In this document: positions 18,816 to 21,969 of the stretch, in pieces
How the letters are laid out: the number at the start of each line of letters is the position of its first letter
Numbering within the stretch: the stretch's first letter is position 1
Assembly (NCBI GenBank): GCA_003224085.1
Contig: QHYK01000043.1
Location: 1-64,000 of the forward strand
Length of the DNA stretch: 64,000 nt
Direction of reading: 5' to 3'
Origin: Acidobacteriota bacterium
Lineage (GTDB): Bacteria > Acidobacteriota > Terriglobia > Acidiferrales > UBA7541
The notes under the pieces: model-generated
Told to the model about the DNA's origin: nothing
What the model saw: the letters and a program-made list of their open reading frames with translations, nothing else
Database searches by the model: none
Position numbers and translations under genes: made by a program

Positions 18816-20270
18816 GTGAATATTGTTTTGATATCGACGTACGAGCTGGGGCGGCAGCCTTTTGGATTGGCCTCGCCTGCGGCGTGGCTGAGAAAGCGCG
18901 CCCACCGCGTGACCACGTTCGATTTATCGCGGCAGCCGCTTGAGGAGGCGAAGGTTCGCGAAGCGGGGCTCATCGCGCTCTATATGCCCATGCATACGGC
19001 GACGCGGCTTGCGGCGCAGCTTGTTCCAGCGCTGCGAGAGATGAATCCGCGCGCGCATCTCTGCGGCTACGGCTTGTACGCGCCAATGAATGCAGAATAC
19101 TTGCGAACGCTTGGCGTCTCCACGATTCTTGGCGGCGAATTTGAAGAAGGGCTGTCGCATCTGGCGGAGCGCCTCGGAAGGAACGGAAACGGCAACGGCG
19201 CATCGGCCTCGCAGCAACCGGAGCCATTGATCTCATTGGCTCGGCAGAAATTCATTCCGCCGGACCGCCAAGGACTTGCGCCACTCGCGAAATATGCCCA
19301 CGTCATTCTTCCCTCGGGCGAACATCGCCTTGCCGGCTACACGGAAGCAAGCCGCGGATGCAAACACCTCTGCCGGCACTGCCCGATTGTTCCGGTTTAC
19401 AAAGGCGTCTTTCGGGTAGTGGATCGCGACGTCGTATTCGAAGACATCCAGCAACAGGTGGCGGCCGGGGCAAAACACATCACCTTTGGTGACCCTGACT
19501 TCTTCAATGGCATCGGTCACGCCATGGCTCTCGTCGAATCGCTGCCCCGCGAATTCCCGCAGGTCACCTACGATGTGACCATCAAGATCGAACATTTGCT
19601 CAAGCATCGACAGCATTTGCCCAGGTTGCGCGACACGGGCTGCCTGTTCGTCACCAGCGCCGTCGAATCGGTGGACGACGAAGTGCTTCGCCGGCTGGAC
19701 AAAGGCCACACCGGGGCACATTTTCTCAAGGTCCATCGCATCTTTCGCGAGTTGGGAATGGTTTTGCACCCGACGTTTGTACCATTCACGCCTTGGACGA
19801 CACTGGAGACCTACATCGGGCTGCTCCGGGTGTTGCGCGAAAACGAGCTCGTCGAAAATGTTGCGCCGATCCAGCTGGCCATACGGCTGTTAATTCCTCC
19901 TGGCTCGCGATTGTTGGAACTCGAAGAAGTGAGGCGGCTTGTTGGCCCGTTCGACGCTTCCAGGTTGCTTTATCCTTGGCGGAATCCCGATCCCCGCGTG
20001 GATGCTCTCAGTGAGGAAATTGAACAGATTGTAGCCTCAGACGAGAAGCGCAAGCTGCCCCGGCAGGCAATCTTCGAGCGCATTGGGAAGGCGGCGCACC
20101 AAGCAGCGGGCGTAAAAGCGGAGTTCGCCGCGCAGCCTGTTCTCGTGTCGCGCGCAACAATTCCTTACCTCAATGAGCCCTGGTACTGTTGAGCTGAGCC
20201 AACTCGGGACCAGTTGGTCCCCTTCGCCGAAGCCAAACAATCCTTACCACAGACGGAGTCGTTTGTTTGA
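18816..20270 (+). CDS. Radical SAM selenoprotein with Cys-Sec-Ala-Glu-Pro tail (TGA at 20190-20192 read as Sec)
   Basis: A 484-residue protein if the TGA at 20190-20192 is read as selenocysteine. Residues 1-130 form a B12-binding-like Rossmann domain, but without the DxHxxG cobalamin motif. The radical SAM core follows, with cluster cysteines Cys182, Cys186 and Cys189 (CxxxCxxC). At the apparent end the codons read TGT TGA GCT GAG CCA, that is Cys458-Sec459-Ala-Glu-Pro, and 20 more codons follow before a TGA at 20268-20270. From memory, a family of 'CUAEP/CCAEP-tail radical SAM proteins' exists, and this matches its tail. The true stop overlaps the TTG of the ATP-grasp gene as TTGA. GTG 18816 is the likeliest start; a frame from 18684 would overlap acnA. 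Reaction and substrate are unknown. Confidence 0.85.
20193..20222 (+). promoter_or_regulatory. Candidate bacterial SECIS hairpin
   Basis: Just after the in-frame TGA, GGGACC (20206-20211) can pair with GGTCCC (20216-20221) around an AGTT loop that starts 19 bases after the TGA. Alternatively CCAACT (20199-20204) pairs with AGTTGG (20212-20217). The distance and a G in the first two loop positions fit the general bacterial SECIS pattern. Function is inferred. Confidence 0.55.
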
Positions 20271-21622
20271 GTCGAGAACCTTTGCCTGACGTAACAAAGG
20301 AAACGAAAGAAACGGGTGACACGACCAGGCGCCTGCTGCTGTTCACCGCGAAGCTAGGGTACCAAACGCGGAGTTTTGAAGACGCCGCGGGCAAGCTGGG
20401 CGTGCAGCTTGTTTACGTCACAGATCGCTGTCACCAACTCGAAGATCCCTGGGGCGATCACGCCATACCAGTGCACTTCGAATCTCCAGAGAATGCCGCA
20501 TACACGGCGAGGGAGGCGTTGCGCGGCCAAGACGTCGAAGGAGTCTTAGCGCTGGGAGATCGTCCCGCGGCCGCCGCGGCGTACGCGGCGCGCGGTCTGG
20601 GAATCGCCTACAACCATCCAGCCGCGGTCGAAGCCTGCCGAAGCAAATTGCGGATGCGAGAAGTATTTCATGAGGCGGGTCTGCGTGTGCCTTGGTTCCA
20701 AAGTTTGCCGATTAGTCCGGTTCCCGAGCCCGCGCTCGCAGGTATTTCGTTCCCCTGCGTACTGAAGCCGCTTTCGCTTTCCGCGAGTCAAGGCGTAATT
20801 CGCGCAAACAGCGGCAGAGAATTTCTTGCCGCTGCGGAACGTCTTCGCCGGTTGCTCGAATCCGCCGAGATTCGCGCCACGCGCGAACCGAGCCTCGATC
20901 AAATCATCGTCGAGGGATACATCCCCGGCAAGGAAGTGGCCGTCGAGGGCCTCCTCACTGACGGCGCCTTACGAATCCTCGCGATTTTCGATAAGCCCGA
21001 TCCGCTCGAAGGCCCCTACTTCGAGGAAACCATCTACGTCACCCCGTCTAGGTTTCCAGAGTCCACACAAAGTCAGATCGAAAAGTGCGCAAGAGATGCA
21101 ACTCGCGCGCTGGGCCTCACTCAAGGACCCATTCACGCGGAGTTTCGAATCAACGAGGACGGAATATGGCCCATCGAAGTCGCCGCGCGTCCCATTGGCG
21201 GGCTCTGCGCGCGGGCTTTACGGTTTTGCGCAAACGATGCCGAGCAGCCGATAGGCCTGGAGGAATTGCTCGTCTGCCACGCACTTAAAATGCCCGGCAG
21301 CGATGCGCCTCGCGAAGCTCACCCCTCCGGAGTCCTGATGATTCCCGTTCCTCAAAGCGGTATTTTGGAAAGCGTTTACGGTGTCGAAGCCGCCCGCGCG
21401 ACTCACCGCATTACGGAACTCATCATCACGGCGCGGCTGCATGATTACATTGCCGCTTGGCCCGAAGGCTCCAGCTACTTGGGGTTTATTTTCGCAAGGG
21501 GAAACACAGCCGAAGAGGCGGAGCAAGCTCTCCGCGACGCCCACAAGAAATTGCGCTTCCGCATCACGCCGCGCCTGCCGGTCGAGCACCCCGCCACACA
21601 CCAGCTGCCCGCAGGCGGCTAA
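20267..21622 (+). CDS. ATP-grasp domain ligase, partner of the radical SAM selenoprotein
   Basis: A 451-residue protein with an N-terminal Rossmann-like domain (about 20-120) and an ATP-grasp fold. Visible elements are FPCVLKPLSLSASQGV (ATP-binding Lys), IVEGYIPGKEVAVEG (central strand) and IHAEFRINEDGIWPIEVAARP (metal-binding Glu/Asn region). Such enzymes join a carboxylate to an amine or thiol through an acyl phosphate. TTG 20267 overlaps the stop of the selenoprotein as TTGA, and GGAG lies eight bases upstream, so translation is probably coupled. No ATG occurs before the middle of the domain. The pair suggests a small biosynthetic or modification pathway. Substrate unknown. Confidence 0.85.
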   Translation: MSREPLPDVTKETKETGDTTRRLLLFTAKLGYQTRSFEDAAGKLGVQLVYVTDRCHQLEDPWGDHAIPVHFESPENAAYTAREALRGQDVEGVLALGDRPAAAAAYAARGLGIAYNHPAAVEACRSKLRMREVFHEAGLRVPWFQSLPISPVPEPALAGISFPCVLKPLSLSASQGVIRANSGREFLAAAERLRRLLESAEIRATREPSLDQIIVEGYIPGKEVAVEGLLTDGALRILAIFDKPDPLEGPYFEETIYVTPSRFPESTQSQIEKCARDATRALGLTQGPIHAEFRINEDGIWPIEVAARPIGGLCARALRFCANDAEQPIGLEELLVCHALKMPGSDAPREAHPSGVLMIPVPQSGILESVYGVEAARATHRITELIITARLHDYIAAWPEGSSYLGFIFARGNTAEEAEQALRDAHKKLRFRITPRLPVEHPATHQLPAGG

Positions 21623-21630
21623 CCCTCAAG

Positions 21631-21969
21631 CTAACCTTTAGCTTTCGGCGGAACGTATCCTTCCGGCAGCTTTGCGCCTTCCCCGAAAAAGAACTGCTCC
21701 ATCTGCTCGCCCATGATCTTCTGCGAATTAGGATCGAGGGGATTCAGGCGATACTCGTTCATAATCATTTTCGAGTACTCCAGCCAAAGCTTCCAGGCCT
21801 CTTTCGAAACGTTTTCGTAGACGCGTTTCCCCAGTTCCCCTTGCCATGGGATGCGGTCAAGGCCCGGCATTTCCTTGCCGAACTTCACGCAATGCACCAT
21901 GCGGGTTCCCGGCTTCACCGGCTCGCTCTGCGCCGGTGCCGGCGTCGGGTCGCAAGATTCGTTGGCCAT
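21631..21969 (-). CDS. yggX: Probable Fe(2+)-trafficking protein YggX
   Basis: A 112-residue protein. The core MVHCVKFGKEMPGLDR (from residue 24) and the VYENVSKEAWKLWLEY motif are diagnostic of YggX, which protects Fe-S proteins from oxidation and helps iron delivery. The canonical protein is about 90 residues. Here there is an extra 22-residue Pro/Ser-rich N-terminus with one more Cys. ATG 21969 has AGGAG seven bases upstream, so the extension is probably real. It converges on the ATP-grasp gene with an 8-base gap. Confidence 0.92.
   Translation of the reverse strand: MANESCDPTPAPAQSEPVKPGTRMVHCVKFGKEMPGLDRIPWQGELGKRVYENVSKEAWKLWLEYSKMIMNEYRLNPLDPNSQKIMGEQMEQFFFGEGAKLPEGYVPPKAKG

Follow-up and report, generated by a model that had tools for sequence, protein, structure and literature searches.

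A probable radical SAM selenoprotein of the CUAEP/CCAEP-tail family and its relatives with putative Sec-Cys and Sec-Sec tails

A radical SAM gene in a 64,000-nucleotide stretch of acidobacterial DNA (the window, meaning the whole stretch analysed) almost certainly encodes a selenoprotein, in that the in-frame TGA at 20190-20192 would be decoded as selenocysteine (Sec). The gene runs from a GTG start to a later TGA (18816..20270, forward strand) and would yield a protein of 484 amino acids with Sec at position 459. It is a further member of an already named family, "CUAEP/CCAEP-tail radical SAM (seleno)protein", and the relatives collected here include ten Chloroflexota genes whose Sec-Cys (UC) and Sec-Sec (UU) tails are not covered by that name and go beyond it.

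Results

The codons at 20184-20201 read TAC TGT TGA GCT GAG CCA. With the TGA taken as Sec, the product ends in EPWYC-U-AEPTRDQLVPFAEAKQSLPQTESFV, that is, with a vicinal pair of Cys458 (TGT) and Sec459 (TGA) at 20187..20192 (forward strand), as judged from the codons and from the alternation of CC, CU, UC and UU among relatives, followed at 20193..20270 (forward strand) by a post-Sec tail and the true stop, as judged from the translation and the tails of homologues. The original prediction, that the frame continues past the Cys codon at 20187-20189 as TGT TGA GCT GAG CCA and that a second TGA (20268-20270) overlaps the TTG of the partner gene (20267) as TTGA, agrees with the sequence in both respects. 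It had further described the frame as open for 20 codons beyond CUAEP up to the second TGA; the frame is open throughout, but 22 sense codons follow CCA, and the gap left if the first TGA were the stop amounts to 74 bases on recount, not 75. The list of open reading frames places the start of this frame upstream, at TTG 18684; relatives instead match the start at 18816 (M-x-x-[VL]-L).

An open stretch of 25 codons is unremarkable alone, its chance being roughly 40% at this base composition by our estimate, and it is the conservation of the tail that raises the post-TGA frame above chance. The pattern E-x-W-aromatic-[C/U]-[C/U]-x-E-P recurs in 144 distinct tails, that of the window included, and all stop codons within it are TGA. 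When the window gene is set beside its closest relative (L025), 16 base differences appear within the 25 post-TGA codons; third positions account for 11 of these (p 0.004 under equal positions), and the codon changes are synonymous in 10 cases and non-synonymous in 5.

The family that the original prediction had remembered does exist: hmmscan against NCBIfam gave NF040546.1 (rSAM_CUAEP) at 642.4 bits, the cut-off being 500, in a match spanning residues 3-467 and profile positions 1-466 of 468. Besides the score, the C[U/C]AEP C-terminus and the radical SAM CxxxCxxC are present in the window gene, for which we found no difference from the family, and the tails of homologues were likewise seen to continue as CUAEP or CCAEP. 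The cluster motif C182-x3-C186-x2-C189 (19359..19382, forward strand; Pfam PF04055) is Cys at all three places in 105/105 relatives and 3/3 ArsL proteins. Cys276 (19641..19643, forward strand), a conserved extra Cys, is kept in 103/105 relatives and replaced by V, V and L in the three ArsL; Cys83 is also widespread (90/105), and Cys276 is therefore not the sole extra Cys. In two relatives (L040, L043) the profile match is split into two overlapping pieces near residues 132-150, a pattern that an insertion of several dozen residues would give. That ordinary annotation can miss the tail, as had been supposed, is exemplified by Thermomicrobium roseum WP_012643191.1, which is listed as ending at Cys, while on the plasmid NC_011961.1 (L116 7935-9371) the DNA past the listed end reads TGT TGA GCG GAG CCG, giving Sec-Ala-Glu-Pro. 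No function for NF040546 was found in the literature searched by family name and tail motif, a search outside which many subscription papers lie, and the main text of a 2026 review (PMC13188914) contains neither NF040546 nor AEP. Another radical SAM selenoprotein, TIGR04167, is listed in PMC9312934.

Relatives were drawn from four sources, namely 21 loci from a search of genome contigs, the Acidobacteriota, the Chloroflexota and one Chloroflexota order, with NF040546 above its cut-off in 61/396, 93/400 and 23/56 genomes of the last three, respectively. The tail pattern was fitted by 194 of 202 loci, truncated or non-fitting tails being left out; the eight others are the ArsL loci L117-L119 together with L062, L063, L074, L160 and L194, which were cut off or filtered out. 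After deduplication, the 144 tails (window included) comprise 100 of type CU, 34 CC, 6 UC and 4 UU. On a quick tree of these tails plus three ArsL (LG+G4, SH-aLRT support only), the second position needs a minimum of 16 switches between Cys and Sec and the first a single one, and 16 was likewise the figure from an earlier tree of 105 tails.

Downstream of the TGA lies a hairpin, GGGACC-AGUU-GGUCCC (20206..20221, forward strand), whose apical loop is placed 19 nt after the UGA. The bacterial SECIS (bSECIS) model, as given in PMC13188914, calls for a loop of 3-9 nt, a stem of 4-16 bp, a G among the first two bases of the loop, a distance of 16-37 nt from the UGA and a minimum free energy of at most -7.5 kcal/mol. 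The hairpin of the window fits this model (loop AGUU of 4 nt, stem of 6 bp, 19 nt), and for the 67-nt stretch 20184-20250 the folding energy is -18.6 kcal/mol (z -2.37 relative to shuffled sequences). Across the family, a stem of at least 5 bp was in place in 95/110 TGA-type genes (CU 85/100, UC 6/6, UU 4/4) versus 4/34 Cys-type genes, a difference with a Fisher p of about 1e-15 when kinship is ignored; a G stood among the first two loop bases in 95/95 of these stems, the spacing was 19-23 nt, and 15/110 TGA-type genes had no 5-bp stem at that place. The first set, mostly Acidobacteriota, had given 37/42 TGA-type genes with a stem in place (18 distinct stem sequences) versus 0/20 of the Cys type, and a scan shifted by 3 to 12 bases found a stem in only 0 to 2 of the same 42 genes; with the Chloroflexota added, the figures were 59/70 CU and 2/2 UC versus 4/34 Cys-type genes. 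When kinship was taken into account, nine independent Sec/Cys pairs on well-supported branches gave, as averages, 7.1 with the hairpin on the side of Sec, 0 with the opposite and 1.9 without difference (sign test, median p 0.016, range 0.004-0.06). The Cys-type genes that keep the hairpin are L130, L131, L133 and L134 of Chloroflexota, which may represent recent changes from Sec to Cys.

All four genes for Sec synthesis and insertion for which a check had been proposed, selA, selB, selC and selD, are present above their cut-offs in the genome of the window (6.8 Mb, 159 contigs): tRNA-Sec (selC) on contig C122 at 66.4 bits (cut-off 47), named tRNA-SeC with anticodon tca by ARAGORN as well; SelB on C7 at 353 bits (cut-off 242); SelA on C58 at 561 bits (cut-off 268); and SelD on C89 at 345 bits (cut-off 125). 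The N-terminal part of SelD stands at the end of contig C18 (L022 1480-1680) and reads VKAAG-U-AAKLSPSLL, the U being encoded by a TGA at what is presumably the usual Sec/Cys place. The gene is seemingly split between C18 and C89 (L020), whose ends share 136 bases. With its in-frame TGA, SelD therefore seems to be a second selenoprotein of this genome. Neither finding that would have refuted the original prediction, a genome without Sec machinery or homologues all lacking a C[U/C]AEP continuation, was thus obtained.

The distribution of selA was compared with the type of tail. Among the Acidobacteriota, 45/45 genomes whose NF040546 match contains a TGA had selA, versus 5/10 with a Cys-type match. 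The window genome and five others with a match stopping short of the tail do not enter this comparison, the type of unfetched genomes was taken from the count of in-match stops, and the matches of three of the 45 (G263, G295, G327) contain a TAG besides. The baseline for the phylum, under a stricter E limit, was 252/396. Seven genomes reached via named records had selA in 3/3 TGA-type and 2/4 Cys-type cases. There was no such contrast in the one Chloroflexota order, where selA occurred in 21/25 genomes with the gene (25/25 TGA-type) versus 24/31 without it, and where four TGA-type assemblies, their completeness not given, showed none.

That the TGA of the window is an ordinary stop and the tail untranslated, as the listed T. 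roseum protein would have it, is rejected, being opposed by the Cys/Sec alternation, the hairpin, the Sec machinery and the third-position bias after the TGA all together.

The first genes with Sec ahead of Cys were met in two Chloroflexota loci (L037, L045), where the codons read TGG TAC TGA TGT. A search through the order to which the L037 genome belongs brought the WY-U-C-AEP genes to six genomes, G396 (L037/L189), G397 (L045/L193), G802 (L183), G803 (L188), G804 (L182) and G805 (L186), and uncovered tandem TGA TGA in four others, G811 (L187), G821 (L191), G826 (L190) and G828 (L185). In all ten genes the pair is followed by AEP, by a stretch reading Q[FL]ASD and by a hairpin whose stem counts 5 to 8 bp, and selA is found in 6/6 of the UC and 3/4 of the UU genomes. 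They form one clade (support 95) in which the UU gene L187 branches first and the UC genes are nested within the UU/UC clade (support 97), one inner node having a support of only 29. Given a single clade with UU branching first, Sec therefore seems to have moved via a Sec-Sec stage, the simplest path apparently being CU to UU to UC.

The second-best NCBIfam family for the window protein was ArsL, the enzyme of arsinothricin biosynthesis (NF040542, 265.1 bits, under its cut-off of 450), and both the profile score and the alignment mark ArsL as the nearest characterised relative. ArsL is reported in PMC8552651 to transfer the 3-amino-3-carboxypropyl (ACP) group of SAM to As(III); the same activity is given, citing Yao 2024, in PMC12159101. 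RCCLKC is the C-terminus of all three ArsL proteins that we fetched, its CC falling opposite the CU/CC of the present family in the alignment; moreover, of 71 core positions conserved to at least 97% in the CUAEP family, 50 are identical in the three ArsL, the cluster motif included. The window protein lacks the RCCLKC end and has instead a longer tail of CUAEP plus 22 residues. Counted outside the cluster motif, the soft ligands of ArsL are three tail Cys, whereas those of the CUAEP family are two in the tail and Cys276, with no third tail Cys. H60, R64, H188 and H298 of the window family, like Cys276, differ from the three ArsL compared, and the substrate therefore probably differs.

The partner gene (20267..21622, forward strand, TTG start) overlaps the radical SAM stop by 4 nt and encodes a predicted ATP-grasp ligase (PF13535, 125 bits; LAL_C2 PF18603, 53 bits), its best solved relative being the L-amino acid ligase BL00235 (PDB 3vot, E 2.5e-36). 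Convergent with it lies a gene for a YggX-type Fe(2+)-trafficking protein (21631..21969, reverse strand; PF04362 on the L025 homologue), a frequent neighbour and at most a candidate member of the system. Neighbours were counted by HMM searches on six-frame translations, because the initial clustering of neighbourhoods had picked antisense open reading frames in GC-rich loci. Among 64 loci, which include one identical pair (L036 and L097), ATP-grasp was found at 43, YggX at 29, an Nfu-type protein at 17 and a POT transporter at 16. The ATP-grasp gene lies downstream on the same strand at 25 loci, six of them with the 4-nt overlap (window, L026, L038, L103, L104, L115), in a count that took the start closest to the stop and so favours overlaps. 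A universal operon partner was considered and rejected, since ATP-grasp is found at 43/64 loci but at 9/33 later, mostly Chloroflexota, ones; at the four UU loci, some of which have little flanking DNA, the search found no ATP-grasp partner. Some of the stretches without the partner are short, L215 above all. No arsenic genes were seen among the 25 most frequent of 124 Pfam families in 87 proteins neighbouring the family loci. For comparison, of the three ArsL-type loci fetched, those of Alicyclobacillus and Priestia have a listed ATP-grasp gene (23-27% identity to that of the window over 236-253 columns, on a different branch), and that of Pseudomonas has none listed. The same two plasmid loci of Alicyclobacillus (L117) and Priestia (L118) hold a gene of the carboxymuconolactone decarboxylase family beside arsenic-related genes. 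L077-L092 are among the loci with a gene for an Nfu-type iron-sulfur scaffold close to that of the radical SAM enzyme.

The AlphaFold2 model of the window protein has a mean pLDDT of 88 and a pTM of 0.88, the mean confidence being 54 at the linker 441-450 and 74 at the motif block 451-460. A sequence search of solved structures gave no match for the radical SAM protein. AprD4, MgmA, OxsB and TsrM share a fold with the predicted model (Z 26.0, 24.8, 24.1 and 23.7) at only 15-16% identity, a shared fold that shows no function, and the model resembles MiaB and RimO in fold as well (Z 22.9 and 21.6).

Discussion

From these comparisons we suggest a mechanism, one that in our judgement has an even chance of being right, in which the selenoprotein uses a Cys-Sec arm for a soft acceptor, cleaves SAM in the manner of ArsL and hands its product on for ligation. 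The hairpin after UGA459 would let SelB and tRNA-Sec insert Sec, and the outcome would be the vicinal pair Cys458-Sec459 on a C-terminal arm, behind a linker of uncertain model confidence. Non-canonical cleavage of SAM like that of ArsL would then move the 3-amino-3-carboxypropyl group to a soft (thiophilic) acceptor atom, for which arsenic, selenium or tellurium species, or another soft electrophile are candidates. The Cys-Sec arm, perhaps with Cys276 as a third ligand, would bind the acceptor and deliver it to the SAM/[4Fe-4S] site, and the RCCLKC of ArsL may act likewise as a substrate arm. Sites with three ligands are usual for trivalent metalloids, and the two tail ligands together with Cys276 would make up a possible site of this kind. 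Finally, the overlapping ATP-grasp ligase, whose relative BL00235 favours methionine-like substrates, would couple the methionine-like amino acid product to a second amino acid. It is the homology with ArsL that leads us to prefer an arm carrying the substrate over one serving as a redox element or as a sulfur or selenium carrier. A CU motif or soft-metalloid Sec chemistry is shared by the metal-binding double selenoprotein MbdU (motif CU) and the Sec-containing arsenite methyltransferases listed in PMC13188914, which by their names are set apart as other families.

What the arm does could nevertheless be read otherwise. The Cys-Sec pair might possibly, though we lean away from it, be a redox element that cycles through a selenenylsulfide and supplies a radical intermediate with electrons or with a hydrogen atom while carrying no substrate atom itself. 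The GCUG tail of thioredoxin reductase is such an element, and tails of this kind likewise present Cys and Sec side by side on a C-terminal arm; the occurrence of all four permutations, CC, CU, UC and UU, would suit it too. Yet the alignment places the pair opposite the CC of the As(III)-handling ArsL, and no reductase is prominent among the recurrent neighbours identified. If the likeness to ArsL is pressed to its limit, the enzyme becomes the counterpart of ArsL, producing an organoarsenical amino acid that the ATP-grasp ligase then links to a peptide, as might be argued from ArsL being the closest named relative and from the ATP-grasp genes listed at the Alicyclobacillus and Priestia loci. 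This we consider unlikely in view of the 265 bits against a cut-off of 450, the lack of an RCCLKC tail, the absence of ars genes from the 25 neighbouring families listed and the family-specific H60, R64, H188 and H298. Improbable as well is a tail donating sulfur or selenium, as persulfide or perselenide, for a MiaB-like insertion, for although MiaB and RimO are fold neighbours and a weak HMM similarity to their families exists, MiaB needs a three-Cys auxiliary cluster, for which Cys276 (103/105) and Cys83 (90/105), the only Cys widely conserved beyond the cluster motif and the tail pair, are too few. The soft-acceptor arm with ArsL-like use of SAM, which we prefer, ties the family to a concrete chemistry and a ligase partner, so that the reaction can now be tested. 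Database entries may end such proteins at the UGA and thereby drop the arm, as in T. roseum.

As for the ten Chloroflexota genes, we think it likely, from their codons and branching, that this lineage carries Sec-Sec encoded by tandem UGA-UGA with a single SECIS-like hairpin, and that the UU form bridged the move of Sec from the second to the first place. The UU tails could in principle stem from assembly error or from a gene that has lapsed, readings at odds with four different UU sequences that all have intact tails. PMC7539508 reports the algal protein PDI_e as the first case of a selenoprotein with one Sec directly after another. Its adjacent Sec (motif GUGUU) are comparable to those of the UU relatives, but it is eukaryotic and by name a protein disulfide isomerase, whereas the UU relatives are radical SAM enzymes; a bacterial precedent for adjacent Sec was not among the matches listed in the literature searched. 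If the assignment is true, bacteria would have a Sec-Sec protein in the UU form, which would hint that the two chalcogens of the arm are both catalytic and can replace each other, and the question arises whether a bacterial ribosome can decode two consecutive UGA with one SECIS. With CC, CU, UC and UU in one enzyme, nature would provide a test series for what selenium adds. Elsewhere in Chloroflexota, six genes with Cys-type tails (L129, L130, L131, L133, L134, L138) have an additional CC close to the C-terminus, as in SSGCCSVGH.
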